A DNA stretch of 37,721 bases from NCBI GenBank assembly GCA_951801955.1, contig CATOOV010000031.1, positions 1 to 37,721 of the forward strand, read 5' to 3'. Position 1 is the stretch's first letter, and each line of letters begins with the position of its first letter. The position numbers were made by a program, and so were the translations under genes. This stretch comes from an uncultured Lachnospiraceae bacterium (GTDB lineage Bacteria; Bacillota; Clostridia; Lachnospirales; Lachnospiraceae). This document shows, piece by piece, positions 1 through 24,797 of the stretch. The notes under the pieces were generated by a model. That model ran no database searches. It had not been told where the DNA came from and saw only the letters and a program-made list of their open reading frames with translations.

Positions 1-116
1 GTCTAAATTTCCATCTGCTACGTTGTCATCAATCGTTGTAGCACTCGCTACAACTCACTCTTCCGCCTTGCTGATGAAAATTTATTCTGCGTAAAATTCA
101 TCGACATTTAACCGCC
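1..116. repeat. Possible dispersed repeat at the window edge
   Basis: The first 116 bases contain a short inverted repeat (GTAGCACTCGCTAC, around 38-52) and no credible start codon. Positions 1-21 match, in inverted orientation and at about 18 of 21 bases, positions 20300-20320 in another gene-free stretch. From memory this style of sequence recurs in Lachnospiraceae genomes, but that cannot be confirmed here. It ends where the degraded reading frame from 117 begins. Confidence 0.3.
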
Positions 117-594
117 GGAGTAATAGTAAAAAATGGAGCTAATGAATATGAAATATTTGGAAAAACTTATGGATCTAATAAGTATGATACCAGTTTAATT
201 TGTTATGCAATAAGCAAATTAGCATGTATTCAGGATCAGATAACATTGTATGAGTATAATGAACAGGATTTAAAAGAATTGCCTGCATCCAGCTTGTCTG
301 TGATCCATTCTATGGGAAATATTAATGTGGTCAATATAGATGATGAAATAGAAAAACAAGATTGCATGGGCAACTGATAGTGAAAATGGTTTATGGATGT
401 GTCAAAACCATCATAAAATGTTTGAGTCCAATATACTTTTTTTGTCACCTTCAGGGCAAGTATCGTATAAAACTGATTTGTCGCAAGAGGATGAAGAATA
501 TATTGATTCGGTCACTACTGTTACGAATCTTCCTTCTAAATTAGTAACACCAACATATGTGAATTACATAAAAAAGCGATATTCAATTGTATAA
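117..594 (+). pseudogene. Frameshifted relic of an unrecognised protein
   Basis: Two reading frames join into one protein-like product. The first runs from about 117 to a TGA near 377 and the second is open from about 352 to the stop at 594. Frame is lost between about 352 and 362. The joined text is compositionally normal protein and ends in KKRYSIV. There is no start codon with a ribosome site at the front, so the gene is also 5'-truncated, apparently at the repeat-like sequence before it. I do not recognise the family. A strong terminator at 673-716 lies about 80 bases downstream, as expected for the end of a former transcription unit. Confidence 0.5.
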
Positions 595-3378: not shown

Positions 3379-5280
3379 TTGATAGAGAAAATGAAGCTGC
3401 TGCATATCGCCGGACCCAAGGACGATATTGACCGTGTGGTGAAAGTATACTTGAATAAGTATGAGATTCATTTTGAGAATGCAATGACCAGCCTTGGCAG
3501 CCTGAAAAATATCCGTCCATTTGTGGAGACAAATTTGTATAAGGATGCGGCACAGAAAGGGGAAGAATTAAAACAGCATCTAAATACATCTGCAAAAGGA
3601 ACGATAGTGATGCGGGCGGCCCAGGCACAGGAAATCATCTATGAAGTCTATGAGCAATTAAAAGATGTGAACAGCAGGAAAAAAGAGCTGCAGGAGGAAA
3701 TGCTGGAAATTAAAGAATGGATGGCACAGATCGCACCCTTTATCGGGCTGGATTTTGAGCTGAGCAAGATGAAGGATTTCCGGTTTATTGATTATCAGTT
3801 CGGACGGATTCGTGTGGTGGATTATCACAAATTAGAACAGTATATTTTTAAAAATCCCTATACATTATTTTATGAGTGCAACAATGACAGTGAATATGTC
3901 TGGGGGGTGTATTTTGTTCCCCATACCCATCGGTTGGAAGTGGAGGCAGTTTATGCCTCGTTCCATTTTGAAGCAATTGAGGTGTCAGAAGTTTTTGAGG
4001 AGACTCCAAAGAAGGTGTTCGACCAGGCAAAAGAACGCCTGGAAGAATGTGAACAGGAGCTGGAACGGCTGCAGATGCGGACGATGGAATGTATCAAAAG
4101 CCGGGAAAATGAGATTTTATCTGCCTGTGAGAGCCTGCAGAGCTATTGCAGAAATTTTGATATCCGAAAATATGCGGCATGTACCCAGTCGAAGGACGAA
4201 AGCGGCGAGTTTTATATTCTGTATGGATGGATGTCAAAAAGGGATGCAGCAAAGTTGGAACAGGAAATTGCAAAGGACGAAAAGATTCACTGGGTGGAGG
4301 AGGAAGGGGACCGCTCTGTGGTGCCCCCTACAAAACTTAAAAATCCTGGAATCTTAAAACCATTTGAAATGTTTGTGGAGATGTATGGGCTTCCCGCTTA
4401 TAATGAGATGGATCCCACTTTGTTTGTGGCGCTGACTTATACGCTGATGTTTGGCATTATGTTTGGAGATGTGGGACAAGGAGCCTGCCTTTTAATCGGC
4501 GGCGTATTACTTTATAAACTTAAGAATCTGCGGCTTGCCGGAATTGTGGGGGTGGCTGGGATCTGGTCTGTGATATTTGGATTTCTTTACGGCAGTGTCT
4601 TTGGATTTGAAGAACTGCTTCCGGCAATATGGATGAAACCCATGGATAACATTATGTCTACCCTGATGATGGCAATTGGGTTTGGCGCGGTACTGATCTT
4701 GATTGCCATGATATTAAATATGGTGAACGCTATTCGGGCAAAAGAGTATGGAAGGCTGCTGTTTCATCAGAGCGGGCTTGCAGGGCTGGTCTGCTATGGG
4801 TTTGTGGTGTTGTGTGCCTTGCTTTTTATCACAGGGCATGGGCTTCCTGCAACCATTATCATCGGCATTGCAGTAGGGGTGCCATTGGTGGCAATCTTGT
4901 TAAAAGAGCCTCTGACCCACCTTGTGGAGCATCACAGCCGGATTTTTCCAGAGGGAAGCAAAGTTATGTTTTTTGTTGAGGCATTGGTGGAAGGCTTTGA
5001 TGTGGTGTTAAGTTATGCAACCAACACCATTTCCTTTGTCCGTGTCGGCGCCTTTGCTTTGAGCCATGCCGGCATGATGGGGGTGGTAATGACCCTTGCC
5101 GGAATGGAAAAAGGAAATCCCAACTGGATTGTGATTGTATTAGGCAATCTTTTAGTTGCCGGACTGGAAGGTCTGGTGGTAGGGATACAGGTGCTTCGCC
5201 TGGAATACTATGAAATGTTCAGCCGTTTTTATACAGGGAACGGAAAACCATTTATCTCATTTAATAAAAGAAATCAATAG
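3379..5280 (+). CDS. ntpI: V/A-type ATPase subunit I (membrane stator, a-subunit homologue)
   Basis: 633 residues. The N-terminal half is soluble and rich in coiled coil (about 90-125 and 210-250). The C-terminal half, from about residue 345, has about seven to eight membrane spans. The segment TISFVRVGAFALSHAG carries Arg555, the best candidate for the essential arginine facing the rotor carboxylate. The subunit forms the two half-channels for H+ or Na+ and anchors the peripheral stalks. I chose the TTG at 3379 because GGAGGAG sits 5 bases upstream and the resulting MIEKMK start matches the family; an internal ATG at 3391 is less well placed. Confidence 0.93.
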   Translation: MIEKMKLLHIAGPKDDIDRVVKVYLNKYEIHFENAMTSLGSLKNIRPFVETNLYKDAAQKGEELKQHLNTSAKGTIVMRAAQAQEIIYEVYEQLKDVNSRKKELQEEMLEIKEWMAQIAPFIGLDFELSKMKDFRFIDYQFGRIRVVDYHKLEQYIFKNPYTLFYECNNDSEYVWGVYFVPHTHRLEVEAVYASFHFEAIEVSEVFEETPKKVFDQAKERLEECEQELERLQMRTMECIKSRENEILSACESLQSYCRNFDIRKYAACTQSKDESGEFYILYGWMSKRDAAKLEQEIAKDEKIHWVEEEGDRSVVPPTKLKNPGILKPFEMFVEMYGLPAYNEMDPTLFVALTYTLMFGIMFGDVGQGACLLIGGVLLYKLKNLRLAGIVGVAGIWSVIFGFLYGSVFGFEELLPAIWMKPMDNIMSTLMMAIGFGAVLILIAMILNMVNAIRAKEYGRLLFHQSGLAGLVCYGFVVLCALLFITGHGLPATIIIGIAVGVPLVAILLKEPLTHLVEHHSRIFPEGSKVMFFVEALVEGFDVVLSYATNTISFVRVGAFALSHAGMMGVVMTLAGMEKGNPNWIVIVLGNLLVAGLEGLVVGIQVLRLEYYEMFSRFYTGNGKPFISFNKRNQ

Positions 5281-18186: not shown

Positions 18187-20097
18187 ATGATTTTAGCATG
18201 CCAAAATATCAGCAAAGCCTTTGGCACAGAGGAAATCATACATCAGGCGTCTTTTCATATTGAGGAAAATGAAAAGGCGGCAATCATAGGTATTAACGGA
18301 GCAGGGAAGACCACCCTGCTTCGGGTTATTATGGGCGAGCTGGATGCAGATTCTGGAGAGGTTATTTTGGCAAAAAACAAGACGATTGGCTATTTGCCCC
18401 AGAATCCAGAGATCGAGGGAGATACTACGATCTATCAGGAAGTTCTTTCTGCGAAGGAAGAACTTATTTCCATGCAGGAAACACTGGTTTCTATGGAAGA
18501 AACCATGAGCAGTTATGCAGGAGCCGAACTGGAACAGTTTATGGAACGATATAACCGTCTGAACCATGAATTTGAGATGAAAGGCGGATCTTCTTATAAG
18601 AGTGAGATCATTGGCGTTCTCAAGGGACTGGGATTTTTGGAAGAAGAGTTTGGGAAACATATGCAGGAATTGTCTGGAGGACAGCGTACCAGGGTGTGCC
18701 TGGGAAAATTATTGGTGACAAAGCCAGATGTGATTTTGCTGGATGAGCCTACCAACCATTTGGATATTGGTTCCATTACTTGGCTGGAAAATTTTCTGCT
18801 GAATTATAAAGGCGCTGTGGTGATTGTCAGCCATGACCGGTATTTTCTTGACCGTGTGGTACATAAAGTGGTGGAATTGGACCGGCACCAGGTATCTGTC
18901 TTTTCTGGAAATTACAGTGAGTATGCAATCAAAAAGGCACAGGTGCGCCAGGCACAGTTAAAACAGTATTACAACCAGCAGCGGGAAATCAAACACCAGG
19001 AGGAAGTGATTGCAAAGCTGAAATCCTTTAACCGGGAAAAGTCTGTGAAGCGTGCCGAAAGCCGGGAGAAAATGTTGGATAAGGTCGAACGCCTGGAGAA
19101 GCCCATAGAGGAAAATACAGACATACATTTGAATCTGGAACCTCGGATTGCCAGCGGGAATGATGTGCTTAAGGTGGAGCATTTTGCAAAATCATATCCA
19201 GGACAGGATTTATTTTCCGATATCTCCTTTGAAATCAAGAGGGGGGAACGTGTAGCGCTGATCGGGGATAACGGCACGGGGAAAACTACGATCTTAAAGA
19301 TAATCAATGATATGGTAGAACCTGACCAGGGAACGCTGACCTTGGGCGCCAATGTGCATATCGGTTACTATGACCAAGAACATCAGGTGCTCCATATGGA
19401 TAAGACACTGGTGGAAGAGATTTCGGATGCCTATCCAAACCTTACCAACACAGAAATTCGAAATGTGCTTGCGGCATTTCTCTTTACTGGCGATGAAGTA
19501 TTCAAGCGGATCTCCGATCTCAGCGGCGGGGAACGGGGACGGGTTTCCCTTGCAAAGCTGATGCTTTCAGAGGCAAATTTTCTGATTCTGGACGAGCCCA
19601 CCAATCATTTGGACATGGTCTCAAAAGAGATTTTGGAACAGGCATTGAATCGTTATACAGGAACCGTGCTTTTTGTGTCCCATGACAGATATTTTATCAA
19701 TAAGACCGCAACCCGGATTTTGAATCTGACAGGACAAACCATTGTAAATTATATTGGAAATTATGATTATTACTTGGAAAAGTGCAGGGAACTGACCCGG
19801 ATTTATGTACAAGATCAGGAGAAACCTGTAAAAACACAGGCAGAGAGCGACGGCAAAAACGATTGGAAACAGCAGAAAGAAAAACAGGCACGCCTTAGAA
19901 AGTTGGAAAATGACCGAAAGAAAACAGAGAATGCCATCGAAGTAATAGAACAGCGGCTCCACGAACTGGAAGAGGCTTTTGCAGATAGCGAGATTGCCAC
20001 CAATTCGGCAAAACTCCAGGAACTTCACCAGGAATACGCCGAAAAACAGCAGAGGTTAGAGGAGTTGTATGAGAAATGGGAAGGATTGATGGAGTGA
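18187..20097 (+). CDS. ABC-F family ATPase (ribosome-associated type)
   Basis: 636 residues with two ABC domains and no membrane segments. Domain one has GINGAGKTT, LSGGQRTRV and DEPTNHLD; domain two has GDNGTGKTT, LSGGERGRV and DEPTNHLD. The linker between them is the charged helical pair typical of ABC-F, and a C-terminal coiled coil (about 550-636) follows. The length and C-terminal extension resemble Bacillus YdiF and E. coli Uup more than the shorter antibiotic-protection members. ABC-F proteins act at the ribosomal E site to relieve stalled translation. No drug-resistance role can be read from the sequence. It is apparently a single-gene unit. Confidence 0.92.
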   Translation: MILACQNISKAFGTEEIIHQASFHIEENEKAAIIGINGAGKTTLLRVIMGELDADSGEVILAKNKTIGYLPQNPEIEGDTTIYQEVLSAKEELISMQETLVSMEETMSSYAGAELEQFMERYNRLNHEFEMKGGSSYKSEIIGVLKGLGFLEEEFGKHMQELSGGQRTRVCLGKLLVTKPDVILLDEPTNHLDIGSITWLENFLLNYKGAVVIVSHDRYFLDRVVHKVVELDRHQVSVFSGNYSEYAIKKAQVRQAQLKQYYNQQREIKHQEEVIAKLKSFNREKSVKRAESREKMLDKVERLEKPIEENTDIHLNLEPRIASGNDVLKVEHFAKSYPGQDLFSDISFEIKRGERVALIGDNGTGKTTILKIINDMVEPDQGTLTLGANVHIGYYDQEHQVLHMDKTLVEEISDAYPNLTNTEIRNVLAAFLFTGDEVFKRISDLSGGERGRVSLAKLMLSEANFLILDEPTNHLDMVSKEILEQALNRYTGTVLFVSHDRYFINKTATRILNLTGQTIVNYIGNYDYYLEKCRELTRIYVQDQEKPVKTQAESDGKNDWKQQKEKQARLRKLENDRKKTENAIEVIEQRLHELEEAFADSEIATNSAKLQELHQEYAEKQQRLEELYEKWEGLME

Positions 20098-20547
20098 TTA
20101 TAGTAAGAAAGGCTTTGTTGTGATGACTGAAATGCGCACTCGCACAACGGGAAAATACTGTTTGGCAATTATGCATGGTGTATAGAATAAAAGATGCATT
20201 CAAAAAATTGATTAGTTACAAAAGTTGTGAAATACACTTTTGTTATAAAAAGAGTAACTTTGTTAATACTATTATTAAAATATTTTTCAAAAAACTAGCA
20301 TAGTAGATGGAAATTTGGACAAGTAATTTGTTTGATTTCTAGGTGGTGTTTTGAAAAATATTGACGCAAAAAATGCAACATTTTGCTGACAAATGTTGTA
20401 TTTTTTTGTTACATTCATTATATTGGAATAAATTTTTAAATCTTTATAGTAAAAATAATTTTTTTCTTTTTTACATTCCCATTTTATCCAGGGATTGGGA
20501 GGTTTACCATGCCTGCGAAAGCTGGAATGAATCCCATGAACGGAATC
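20098..20547. other. Gene-free, AT-rich stretch between the ABC-F gene and the recombinase
   Basis: About 450 bases with no credible gene. It holds a long AT-rich section, an imperfect inverted repeat around 20214-20262, the repeat-like 21-mer at 20300-20320 that matches the window start, and a terminator at 20374-20407. A 14-codon frame from an ATG at 20510, preceded by GGGAGG, is open but too short to support. Confidence 0.5.
20374..20407. terminator. Bidirectional-looking terminator
   Basis: Arms 20374-20383 and 20391-20400 pair with one G-T pair around a 7-base loop. A run of T follows on the plus strand, and six A precede, giving a T run on the minus strand. It may close both the ABC-F gene and the recombinase gene that points towards it. 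Confidence 0.6.
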
Positions 20548-21129
20548 TTATAAATCTATTCCCCAAAATACGTCGTCTTTCTCATCCTGTTCAATACACA
20601 GATAACGTTTTGTAATCTGGTAAGGTGAGTGATTAAAAATTTCCATAATCAGCGCAGGGGGCGTTCCGTTTTTCCAGGCATGATAGCCAAAGGTTTTCCG
20701 CAGGGAGTGGCAGCTAATAGGCTCAGGCAGTTGTGTATCAACAGCGGCTTTTTTGATAATGCGGTAAGCCTGGCAGCGGCTGATGGGCTTCTTTTGATTC
20801 TTGTGGCTGGTGAAAAGGAAATTGTCTTTTTGACCACCAGAAGAGGCATTTCGAAGAGATTCCAGTGTATGGGTGACAGCATGGTTTAAAGGTATTACCG
20901 TGTTTTTTCCCGTTTTTTGTTCCCGCAGATACAAATGGTCGCGGTATCGTTGATTTTCAAAATTATATACCATATCCCAAGTAGTTTTTAAAATGTCGCT
21001 GATGCGCAATGCCGTATTCAGTCCAAAGATGATCAGTGCATAGTTTCTTGGGTTTGAATGTTCTCTTAAATAATAGTTTTTAAATTCCGCCAACTGGTCA
21101 GTTTGGCGTATTGGTTGTGTCCTGCTCAT
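20548..21129 (-). CDS. Short tyrosine recombinase (catalytic domain only)
   Basis: 193 residues, all catalytic domain; there is no arm-binding or full core-binding domain, as in FimB/FimE-size recombinases and a widespread Bacillota family of about 190 residues. The catalytic set is present: Arg42 (TALRISD), Lys72 (EQKTGK), His141-x-x-Arg144 (HSLRKT), His167 (IFNHSP) and nucleophile Tyr176. The start at 21129 gives MSRTQPIR, like its family, but the bases before it are antisense flagellin with only a weak AGGGA 12 bases away; the frame stays open through that antisense region to 21282. The gene therefore seems to have lost its own promoter and ribosome site, or its neighbour was brought to it by recombination. 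The target site is unknown. Confidence 0.85.
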
Positions 21130-21133
21130 CAAA

Positions 21134-21358
21134 CAGCGTTCTTCCCTGGGTGCAATCCAGAACCGTCTGGAGCATACCATTGCTAACTTAGATAACGTTG
21201 TAGAGAACACCACGGCTGCTGAATCCAGAATCCGTGATGTGGATATGGCAGAAGAGATGGTGGAATACAGCAAGAACAACATTTTTGCACAGGCTGGACA
21301 GTCTATGTTTGCACAGGCGAACCAGTCAAACCAAGGCGTCCTGTCTTTGCTTGGTTAG
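21134..21358 (+). pseudogene. 3' remnant of a flagellin gene
   Basis: The frame reads [20 protein letters not shown], continues through an [14 protein letters not shown] segment and ends QGVLSLLG. This is the textbook C-terminal D0/D1 helix of bacterial flagellin, 74 codons with a proper stop. The front three quarters of the gene are absent. Similarity starts at the CAG at 21134; the preceding in-frame codons are the recombinase 5' end read backwards. No disabling mutation is seen within the remnant, so the event is recent or the segment is under selection. A terminator-like hairpin still follows at 21443-21477. No other flagellar gene is in the window. Confidence 0.9.
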
Positions 21359-21442
21359 TTCCTGTTATAACAGATTGGCGCTTGGTACAACCTGAAAAGA
21401 AATTTCTGTCAAAAATAAATGTCAAAAAGCGAAGGGGGCAGA

Positions 21443-21678: not shown

Positions 21679-22317
21679 ATGGAGAAGGAGATATCCCAGG
21701 CGGTTATTCGAAGAATACCAAGGTATTACAGGTATTTGGGAGAACTGATAGATGATGGGGTGGAAAGGATTTCATCAAATGAACTGAGTGCCAGAATGCG
21801 TGTCACTGCATCTCAGATCCGGCAGGATCTGAACAATTTTGGAGGGTTTGGACAACAGGGCTATGGATATAATGTGAAATATCTTTATGATGAGATCGGA
21901 AATATCCTTGGAATCAACCAACAGCACAATATCATTGTGATTGGCGCCGGCAATCTTGGGCAGGCGCTTGCCAATTATGTGAAGTTTGAAAAAAGGGGAT
22001 TTGTGATTATAGGGCTTTTTGATGTAAACCCCGCGTTAAATGGGATTTCTGTGAGAGGCATCAAGGTGCGTATGATGAATGAGTTGGAAGCCTTTGTCAA
22101 GAAAGAACGAGTGGATATTGCAGCGCTTACCATGCCAAAGGAAAAGGCTGATGAAACGGCAAATATGTTAGTAAGCCTTGGCATTAATGCTATCTGGAAT
22201 TTTGCACATCTGGATTTGGAATTGCCAGAACATGTAGTGGTGGAGAACGTACATCTTTCTGACAGCCTGATGCAGTTATCCTACAATATTGCAAAACAAA
22301 GAAAACGAAAAGAATAA
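21679..22317 (+). CDS. rex: Redox-sensing transcriptional repressor Rex
   Basis: 212 residues. The N-terminal winged helix has RIPRYYRYLGEL, RISSNELSARM and TASQIRQDLNNFGGFGQQGYGY, all near-invariant in Rex. The Rossmann part has VIGAGNLGQAL for NAD(H) binding and ends with the domain-swapped helix. Rex leaves DNA when NADH is high, releasing fermentation and NADH-reoxidation genes. I chose the ATG at 21679 because TAGGAGG lies just before it; an upstream frame from 21589 covers the promoter and is rejected. The next gene begins 11 bases downstream. Confidence 0.96.
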   Translation: MEKEISQAVIRRIPRYYRYLGELIDDGVERISSNELSARMRVTASQIRQDLNNFGGFGQQGYGYNVKYLYDEIGNILGINQQHNIIVIGAGNLGQALANYVKFEKRGFVIIGLFDVNPALNGISVRGIKVRMMNELEAFVKKERVDIAALTMPKEKADETANMLVSLGINAIWNFAHLDLELPEHVVVENVHLSDSLMQLSYNIAKQRKRKE

Positions 22318-23151: not shown

Positions 23152-24681
23152 ATGGATATTTTGGTTGACAGCAGGCAAATGAAACAATGTGATAAAAATA
23201 CAATCGAGTATTTTGGCGTGCCTTCCCTGGTTCTTATGGAACGTGCCGCACTGGGGGTAGTAGAGGAAATTGAAGAATTTATTCAGTGTATTGGCGGAGT
23301 GGGGCATCAACAGAGGGAGGGATATGACAAGGGGCAACAAGTGCTTGTAGTGTGTGGTTTTGGAAATAACGGCGGAGACGGGCTTGTGGTTGGGCGCCTG
23401 CTTTGGCAGAAAGGGTTCTCTGTTACGATTGTGATGCCTCCAGAGGGCAGAATGTCAAAAGAGACAAAGATGCAGAGAGAGATTCTGGGAAAATATGGGA
23501 TTCCCATTGTCAGCCAGATACCAGATCAGAAATATGATGTTGTGGTGGATGCATTGTTTGGAATTGGTCTTGCCAGGGATTTGGAAGGTATCCATCGGGA
23601 ATTAATTGTGAAAATGAATGAAATGCCAGGTTATAAGGTGGCGGTGGACATACCGTCTGGGCTCCATGCAGATACGGGGGCAGTGATGGGGGTTGCTTTT
23701 CAAGCAGATTTGACCATTACCTTTGCTTATGCAAAGATTGGTCTTTTATTGTTTCCAGGAGCAGAATATGCAGGCAGGATTGCCGTGAAAGACATTGGAA
23801 TCGACGGTCATAGTTTTCTTGGGGAACAGCCAGCATGTTTTCATCTGACGCAGAAAGATTTGAAAAAGGTTCCGTCGCGGAAAGCCTATTCCAATAAGGG
23901 AAGCTATGGGAAGGTGTTGGTAGCAGCAGGGCAGAAAAATATGGCGGGTGCGGCGTTTTTTACTGGAAAAGCCGCATATCACACGGGAGCCGGGATGGTA
24001 AAAGTCATGACCGAGGAGGAAAATCGGATCATTCTCCAACAGCTTTTGCCGGAAGCGATTCTGGAAACGTGGACAGAAACAGAAATAACAAAGAAATTAA
24101 AAGATTCTTTCGCCTGGGCTTCTGTAATAGCCGCAGGACCGGGAATCGGTACAGATGAAAGCGCAGAATGTGCGATCCAATGTATTTTGGAACAGTCTGG
24201 ACTTCCGGTTATTTTGGACGCAGACGGATTAAATATTGCAGCGAAGCATTTGGATTGGCTGAAAAAGGCAAAAACATCTATAATTATAACCCCCCATCTG
24301 GGAGAGATGGCAAGGCTTGTAAAAATGGATATTAAAATGGTTCAGGAACAATTTTTGCAGGTTGCAAAAAATTTTTCAAAGGAATACAATGTAATATGTG
24401 TGCTCAAAGACGCACATACTGTGACAGCGCTACCTGATGGCAGGATTTGGATGAATACCAGCGGGAATCACGGCATGGCTACTGCAGGTTCCGGGGATGT
24501 TTTAACAGGAATTCTTGCCGGGCTGGTTGCCCAGGGAATGGAACCGCAAGAGGCAGCCCCCATGGGTGTATTTCTTCATGGGCTTGCCGGGGATATCCAG
24601 GCGGCGCAAAAAGGGGCTTATGGGCTTACAGCACAGGACATTTTGGAAGGAATACCAAAGGTACTTCGGGATGTGGGATAA
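23152..24681 (+). CDS. nnr: Bifunctional NAD(P)H-hydrate epimerase / ADP-dependent dehydratase
   Basis: 509 residues made of two repair enzymes in one chain. The N-terminal half (about 1-220, YjeF_N) has FGNNGGDGLVVGRLL and the PSGLHADTG segment; it interconverts R and S forms of hydrated NAD(P)H. The C-terminal half (about 225-505, kinase-like) has NKGSYGKVLVAAG, AAGPGIGTDESA, LDADGLN, ITPHLGEMARL and the ATAGSGDVLTG signature; it restores NAD(P)H at the expense of ADP or ATP. The ATG follows AGGAGAAG. The last 17 codons are the first unit of a 56-57 base tandem repeat running into the alr leader. Confidence 0.95.
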   Translation: MDILVDSRQMKQCDKNTIEYFGVPSLVLMERAALGVVEEIEEFIQCIGGVGHQQREGYDKGQQVLVVCGFGNNGGDGLVVGRLLWQKGFSVTIVMPPEGRMSKETKMQREILGKYGIPIVSQIPDQKYDVVVDALFGIGLARDLEGIHRELIVKMNEMPGYKVAVDIPSGLHADTGAVMGVAFQADLTITFAYAKIGLLLFPGAEYAGRIAVKDIGIDGHSFLGEQPACFHLTQKDLKKVPSRKAYSNKGSYGKVLVAAGQKNMAGAAFFTGKAAYHTGAGMVKVMTEEENRIILQQLLPEAILETWTETEITKKLKDSFAWASVIAAGPGIGTDESAECAIQCILEQSGLPVILDADGLNIAAKHLDWLKKAKTSIIITPHLGEMARLVKMDIKMVQEQFLQVAKNFSKEYNVICVLKDAHTVTALPDGRIWMNTSGNHGMATAGSGDVLTGILAGLVAQGMEPQEAAPMGVFLHGLAGDIQAAQKGAYGLTAQDILEGIPKVLRDVG

Positions 24682-24797
24682 TTGCCGCACAAGATATATT
24701 GGGAAGGGAAACCAAAGGTATTTCGGGAAGGGGGATAATTACCGCACAGGATATATTGGGAAGGGAAACCAAAGGTATTTCGGGATGTGGGATAATT
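24631..24797 (+). repeat. Three tandem copies of a 56-57 base unit at the 3' end of nnr
   Basis: Copy 1 (24631-24686) is the true 3' end of nnr with its stop codon. Copies 2 (24687-24743) and 3 (24744-24797) follow head to tail. Copies 2 and 3 share changes such as GATATATTGGGAAGGGAAA that copy 1 lacks, so one duplicate was itself duplicated later. They are one base longer than copy 1, and nnr already ends in copy 1, so they are not part of the protein. They form most of the nnr-alr gap. Confidence 0.9.

Follow-up and report, generated by a model that had tools for sequence, protein, structure and literature searches.

The central question raised by this locus is why the tail of a flagellin gene should lie head-to-head with the gene for a small tyrosine recombinase. 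The two meet within a stretch of 37,721 nucleotides (hereafter the window) from an uncultured Lachnospiraceae bacterium (contig CATOOV010000031.1 of assembly GCA_951801955.1). A sequence-only reading of the window had left two explanations: the junction could be a dead relic of an insertion or deletion, or it could be one state of a locus in which a flagellin 3′ cassette is moved by a dedicated recombinase. We consider it very probable that positions 20374-21358 of the window derive, by deletion, from an invertible flagellin switch.

The abrupt join that had been noticed is real: recombinase sequence ends at 21129, in-frame flagellin begins at 21130, and the boundary is sharp in a search of the genus. 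On the minus strand, positions 20548..21129 hold an open frame for a recombinase of 193 amino acids, as defined by the ORF list, Pfam and alignment with paralogues. The mechanical ORF runs on to 21282 through antisense flagellin, and the paralogues set the start at 21129. The sole Pfam family in the protein is PF00589, matched at 88 bits (gathering cut-off 27.1). Residues R42, K72, H141, R144, H167 and Y176, which we take to be the catalytic set R-K-H-R-H-Y of tyrosine recombinases, are all present and are common to the paralogues on contigs C104 and C41 of the same assembly. Thus, the protein belongs to the tyrosine recombinase superfamily, and the earlier statement that its catalytic residues are complete holds under this assignment. 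On the plus strand, the flagellin 3′ remnant (21130..21358; Pfam and genus search) covers the C-terminal helical region and keeps its stop codon. As had also been stated, no internal stop interrupts its frame, which is open from 21131 to 21358 and matches PF00700 at 96.7 bits (profile positions 13-86 of 86). Of the two flagellin domains, PF00669 and PF00700, only the latter is present in the remnant.

When positions 20900-21400 were used as a query against 29 genomes of the genus, its own included, nine recombinase matches outside the window reached the junction. Seven end at query position 230 (21129), one ends at 232, and the C104 paralogue ends at 234. Flagellin matches start at 231 (21130) at the earliest and mostly at 234-235 (21133-21134). 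Except for the window itself, no match in these 29 genomes spans 21129/21130, and with a single match across the junction in none of the 28 other genomes, there is no sign that any of them shares the deletion. The suspicion that the recombinase lacks a ribosome site is likewise borne out, since AAGGAGGA, which in the C104 and C41 paralogues lies directly 5′ of the ATG and is followed by the right recombination site, is replaced by flagellin in the window.

A DNA search of the bacterium's own genome located recombinase/csrA/flagellin units on C104 and C41, whose recombinases share 71 and 69% amino acid identity, respectively, with the window protein. In both, the order is recombinase (minus), a gap, a csrA-like gene (plus) and flagellin (plus). 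The C104 flagellin has both PF00669 and PF00700, and the C41 flagellin is truncated where its contig stops. The C104 and C41 recombinase genes are enclosed by inverted repeats of 29 nt (100%) and 31 nt (97%), respectively, with a site core of TGCAACnTTn-7 nt-nAAnGTTGCA. Five sites in the assembly lie within one mismatch of this pattern: C104 and C41 carry two apiece, and the fifth is that of the window. Allowing up to three mismatches raises the count to 31, versus 11 for a reversed control pattern. The window site (20374..20400), TGCAACATTT-TGCTGAC-AAATGTTGTA, comprises a 10-bp arm, a 7-bp spacer and a 10-bp arm, has one mismatch to the pattern, and has a spacer identical to that of related loci L015 and L016. 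At 20420..20446 on the minus strand, motif scoring placed a SigD-type promoter, TAAA-N16-CCAATAT, that reads away from flagellin and is one base off, with CCAATAT where relatives have CCGATAT.

Several other features of these contigs can be recorded here. A 75-nt inverted repeat (72%; positions 135-209 and 3481-3555 of the C104 locus, L009), with copies 3.3 kb apart, flanks the whole C104 unit, and a Cas9 gene with all main domains begins ~380 bases past the C104 flagellin and continues to the contig end. The end of C41, the start of C45, the start of C91 and the end of C105 all fall in flagellin C-terminal sequence, as if two near-identical copies broke the assembly. Within the window, three 57-bp tandem copies (24626-24797; 87% matches) span the end of a presumably nnr-like gene ahead of a presumably alr-like gene, and an open frame passes through them into the next ORF.

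The same genomic position in a relative reveals what is missing from the window. The junction lies between two syntenic anchors, a gene for an ATPase on the left (18187..20097, plus; PF00005 and PF12848) and a gene for a repressor on the right (21679..22317, plus; PF06971 and PF02629), which we take beyond their Pfam domains to be ABC-F-type and Rex-like, respectively. In Lachnospiraceae isolate B57_57_RB_H (locus L014), the same neighbours stand in the same order (isocitrate dehydrogenase, 92%; ABC-F, 86% aa; Rex-like, 89% aa; and the next three genes too), and between them lies a whole unit, in which two inverted 27-bp sites enclose the recombinase gene and are accompanied by a csrA paralogue and a complete flagellin. 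The window site aligns with an L014 site and is the counterpart of the far site of the whole unit. From there, the alignment extends as far as the start codon of the recombinase (window 21129, L014 reversed 6579), breaks off, and picks up again within the C-terminal part of flagellin (21147 and 8581, respectively). Approximately 2 kb of L014 are absent from the window, comprising the right site, csrA, and the N-terminus and centre of flagellin. Assembly-wide pattern and csrA searches likewise placed neither a second recombination site nor a csrA gene in the window. Because the genome is 88.8% complete in 164 contigs, the lost parts could be unassembled. With the breakpoint at 21129..21130 from both the L014 alignment and the genus search, the junction is best read, on this comparison of sequences, as the deletion scar of a whole switch unit. 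The syntenic comparison therefore supports, for the window copy, the first of the two original explanations, a relic left by deletion.

In this scenario, an ordinary deletion would have begun at the recombinase start codon and ended within the coding region for the flagellin C-terminus. Given the loss of the second site, csrA and most of the flagellin, the window copy should be able neither to invert itself nor to encode a filament protein. A deletion made by the recombinase itself is disfavoured, because the break sits at the recombinase ATG rather than at a recombination site. The pN/pS of the window recombinase is 0.16-0.18 against L014, L015 and L016, with dS saturated. Nonsynonymous to synonymous changes on the window lineage versus the relative are 15:29 versus 19:24 (L014), 19:20 versus 13:22 (L015), 15:24 versus 30:30 (L016), 28:31 versus 14:21 (L017) and 20:23 versus 27:16 (L018), and these comparisons, also subject to saturated dS, give no consistent or clear sign of relaxed selection, as would suit a young deletion.

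Even if the deletion is real, the window recombinase might have been kept for work in trans on the C104 and C41 sites or elsewhere. Its open frame, low pN/pS and lack of a consistent excess of amino acid changes would suit such a role, and RecV of C. difficile is described as serving two switches (PMC5386303). However, the 5′ region has been lost together with its ribosome site, the arms and spacer of the window site differ from those of the C104 and C41 sites, and these two loci each carry a recombinase of their own, which makes a trans role improbable. We also consider it very unlikely that misassembly fused two flagellin loci into a chimeric junction. Contigs C41, C45, C91 and C105 do end inside flagellin copies, but the remnant is identical to no other copy found (the best is 88% over 116 bases), neither an orphan csrA nor a second site with the window spacer was found in the assembly, and both flanks of the window locus are syntenic with L014.

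The second of the original explanations, a locus that shuffles flagellin 3′ cassettes, retains hardly any credibility. A dedicated recombinase family does adjoin flagellin genes, but a DNA search of the assembly found neither another copy of the junction nor an alternative one, no other site among those with up to three mismatches has the window spacer, the break lies off any recombination site, and the repeat pairs of whole units flank the recombinase and not the flagellin. What does look right, for the whole relatives, is the notion of a dedicated recombinase for flagellin variation, although the segment that would invert is that of the recombinase and promoter rather than a flagellin cassette. 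It seems similarly far-fetched that the integrase of a mobile element was inserted in a flagellin gene. The recombinase matches phage integrase family phrog_216 at 164 bits, yet many genomes share the recombinase-csrA-flagellin order, and at the syntenic position L014 has it whole. Deletion of a formerly whole switch is the reading that we retain.

We propose that a whole unit consists of a recombinase gene and a SigD-type promoter between two inverted 27-bp sites, with the promoter behind the 3′ end of the recombinase gene and aimed out of the segment. The recombinase would invert the segment that carries its own gene. In the OFF orientation, the promoter would fire away from the adjoining csrA-flagellin operon. 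In the ON orientation, it would fire into this operon, and therefore a secondary flagellin would be made together with the CsrA paralogue. The anatomy of the units, their synteny, the stretch missing from the window and the presence of both orientations among relatives can be read directly from the sequences, and from these we infer inversion by this recombinase itself, use of the promoter by SigD and a function for the CsrA paralogue.

A scan of genome contigs with three recombinases yielded 331 relatives. The best 80 of these 331 were kept, and their titles are mostly Lachnospiraceae or genera that we place there, with a few Clostridium, Bacillus or simply bacterium. Named relatives that carry such a unit include Petralouisia muris (L018), Eubacterium sp. 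14-2 (L033) and Lachnospiraceae bacterium A2 (L055) and 3-1 (L058). Together with C104 and C41, the 80 fetched loci make 82 scored loci. An inverted repeat pair surrounds the recombinase in 56 of the 82; the script found none in the other 26, some of which are cut by contig ends, and others of which may be locked or differ. The counts among the 56 loci are not independent because some are near-duplicates (e.g. L029/L036/L041). Fifty-two of the 56 are scorable: one of the repeats adjoins csrA or flagellin, and the segment holds a promoter that scores 10/11 or better. The remaining four are L019 and L020, which have repeats and promoter with different neighbours, and L065 and L066, which have repeats only. 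At E ≤ 1e-40 the recombinase is present in 23 of the 29 genomes of the window's genus, its own included, and with the L059 protein as query at E ≤ 1e-50 it is present in 27 of 397 genomes drawn evenly from the family, again including its own.

The four exceptional loci hint at wider use of this arrangement. In L019, the same segment and promoter lie between genes for two large proteins that start like exported ones, with Big_2 on one side and polysaccharide deacetylase plus weak choline-binding repeats on the other, and L020 has a similar layout. The L065 segment is beside a NusG-domain gene (PF02357) and apparent polysaccharide genes, and L066 is alike by eye. The recombinase family thus gives the impression of a switch of general use that inverts itself, and that most of these loci employ for flagellin. 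Five loci (L073, L079 from isolate B63, L059, L042 and L050) have several tandem flagellin genes, some with their own csrA, and the fetched stretch of L079 holds six flagellin heads. It is possible that such regions provide alternative filaments.

The promoter consensus, TAAA-N15/16-CCGATAT, is located directly 3′ of the recombinase gene and reads out of the segment; it agrees with the sigma-28 consensus given in PMC3720852. Scores are 11/11 in 27, 10/11 in 24 and 9 or less in 5 of the 56 loci, and promoters of at least 10/11 thus occur in 51 of 56, whereas Markov shuffles of the 3′ region (2750, from 55 loci) reach 10 in 11 cases. On the opposite strand and the 5′ side, L074 alone among the 56 attains a score of 10. 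The C41 locus has an 11/11 promoter in the expected place plus a 10/11 match on the opposite strand, and for L069 the match that the script scored, at 10/11, lies inside the gene, in the same direction as a 10/11 match 3′ of the gene. In the variant represented by L074, L134 and L182 (sites GTAACACAA...TTGTGTTAC), the promoter is at the 5′ side of the recombinase, which is codirectional with csrA, and the state is nonetheless OFF.

Of the 52 scorable loci, 48 are OFF, their promoter being directed away from csrA-flagellin, and four are ON (L044, L046, L059 and L061), with the promoter directed into it. A second locus set, whose genomes overlap the first, gave 31 OFF and 0 ON among 58 loci. A third, also overlapping the first, gave two ON among 43 loci, again L046 and L044, and 28 OFF, one of which (L206) is based on a long repeat unlike the site.

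A first line of evidence for inversion comes from the sites themselves, given that strand exchange by tyrosine recombinases requires spacer identity. Mismatches between the two sites of one locus amount to 96 of 560 cells in the outer arm, 24 of 560 in the inner arm and 3 of 392 in the spacer, and two of the three spacer mismatches are a register slip in L038/L039. The arm figures are inflated, since the script chose the site register and the ends of the 27-mer lie partly beyond the repeat alignment. Positions 7, 8 and 10 beside the spacer, with 21, 21 and 15 mismatches, give a contrast with the spacer that is free of this bias. Spacers differ between loci, with 36 kinds among the 56, but are nearly always identical within a locus.

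Pairs of genomes in opposite states provide the second line of evidence. When seven candidate loci, ON or codirectional, were compared by the genes of their outer flanks, no ON/OFF pair with clear synteny emerged from the 80 loci; searches within genera then gave three pairs, each made up of different genomes of one genus with 69-73% identity over the segment. Between L046 (Roseburia sp. SUG84, ON) and L187 (same genus, OFF), the segment between the sites is inverted, csrA-flagellin is colinear from the inner site, and purM-purN-purD is colinear on the other side; the 2.5 kb from purD to the outer site are unaligned and hold different genes. The L044/L213 pair has an inverted segment, colinear csrA-flagellin, the same spacer and 26 aligned bases of outer flank. 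In the L061/L215 pair, the segment is inverted relative to colinear csrA-flagellin, the outer flank is unaligned, and the L215 sites are unmatched by the pattern. Both orientations are thus found as comparisons between genomes only (4 ON and 48 OFF loci; three inverted pairs), and inversion within one strain is predicted on that basis.

The csrA genes of the C104 and C41 units match PF02599 at 57.3 and 56.8 bits (cut-off 27), and therefore qualify as CsrA by Pfam. They are nevertheless divergent, scoring only 24-31 bits versus the equivalog cut-offs of 70-73 (TIGR00202 and PRK01712). Three csrA genes are present in this genome, on C45, C104 and C41, and the C45 copy, which lies beside fliW, scores higher than the switch copies. 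A hairpin with ANGGA in or at its loop is found in 124 of 158 rows of flagellin leaders and therefore in ~62 of 79 leaders, each leader being scanned twice. The stems vary in sequence, and the hairpins are mostly upstream of a ACAAGGAGG-like SD. Plain letter shuffles of the leaders, which do not keep the ANGGA word, gave the hairpin in 43 of 3160. The main flagellin leader on C45 has a GCAGC-ATGGAA-GCTGC hairpin and a CAAGGAGGA SD. Because the switch and C45 leaders carry a similar hairpin and SD, the alternative and main flagellins both look like CsrA targets. The switch CsrA paralogue might either silence the main flagellin, as FljA does fliC, or tune its own.

Another RNA element occurs at C104, where positions 1-124 (minus) match the Rfam TwoAYGGAY RNA at 86.6 bits (clan CL00106) and end with the contig. 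This RNA is on the far side of the outer site, in the direction in which the SigD-type promoter reads as assembled, and with its GGA loops it might serve, when the switch is OFF, to antagonize CsrA. It was not found in the window or at 13 other loci examined, including L010 and L014.

The closest functional parallel is the Hin/fljBA system of Salmonella, which likewise places a recombinase and the promoter of a second flagellin in a segment bounded by short inverted sites. There, the flagellin is co-transcribed with the regulator FljA, a repressor of fliC (PMC9368917), and Hin, which belongs to the serine recombinases, works with an enhancer bound by Fis (PMC3798978). In contrast, the present units have a tyrosine recombinase, 27-bp sites with a 7-bp spacer and a CsrA paralogue before the flagellin gene, and they occur in a Gram-positive family. 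The C104 and C41 units and the relatives share the Hin-like layout of a recombinase and an outward promoter within a repeat-bounded segment beside flagellin, and the window locus, with one site, does not. The switch is not a Hin member, because its recombinase is of tyrosine type; PF00589 is the only domain found and the serine recombinase catalytic domain of Hin/Gin invertases is lacking. We tentatively entertain, while leaning somewhat against it, the idea of a Lachnospiraceae counterpart of Hin-fljBA, in which a self-inverting segment turns on an alternative flagellin plus a CsrA paralogue that takes the role of FljA by silencing the main flagellin via its leader.

The flagellar switch of C. 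difficile and its recombinase RecV resemble these units in combining a tyrosine recombinase, inverted repeats and flagella within the Clostridia. As described, that switch is a segment of 154 bp that has 21-bp repeats and precedes the flgB operon, and RecV operates at least two switches (PMC5386303). Such a segment is too short for a recombinase gene, whereas here the segment holds both recombinase and promoter and precedes one flagellin operon. E. coli FimB and FimE are similar in size and catalytic domain, and PRK09871 is the second-best NCBIfam model, at 49-55 bits. The window protein reaches only 48.9 of 222 bits for PRK09871 and 31.1 of 221 bits for PRK09870, models of a 'tyrosine-type DNA invertase' that we take to be FimB/FimE-type, and hence lies outside that type. 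A further difference is that fimB and fimE sit outside fimS. The ANGGA hairpin and SD in many switch flagellin leaders, as well as the second csrA beside fliW on C45, recall CsrA-FliW control of flagellin translation, from which the switch differs in that its csrA is a divergent copy within the flagellin operon itself.

In a search by title or abstract start, which reached neither preprints nor most subscription papers, we found no description of an invertible flagellin switch in Lachnospiraceae. Invertible promoters were reportedly the subject of Jiang et al. 2019. The 2013 study of Roseburia and Eubacterium flagellins makes no mention of recombinase, integrase or phase in the portion considered here, and it reports that a promoter could not be found for some flagellin genes (PMC3720852).

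Taken by itself, the window copy is broken and a modest finding, and serves as an example of how such a switch can be lost. The whole units, however, look like an undescribed and widespread flagellin phase-variation switch. It offers what appears to be an independent answer, based on a tyrosine recombinase, to the one of Salmonella, and its operon includes an RNA-binding regulator. Flagellins of Lachnospiraceae have a prominent place among the antibody targets in Crohn's disease and ME/CFS. More generally, flagellins of the gut microbiota are reported as antibody targets in both conditions (PMC11285207, PMC11580831). If many such flagellins are phase-variable by DNA inversion, then antigen exposure, motility and immune recognition would vary within a strain, and the orientation of the segment could be read from existing metagenomes. 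Furthermore, if the counterpart reading is true, tandem or multiple switches per genome would let one commensal show several alternative filaments.
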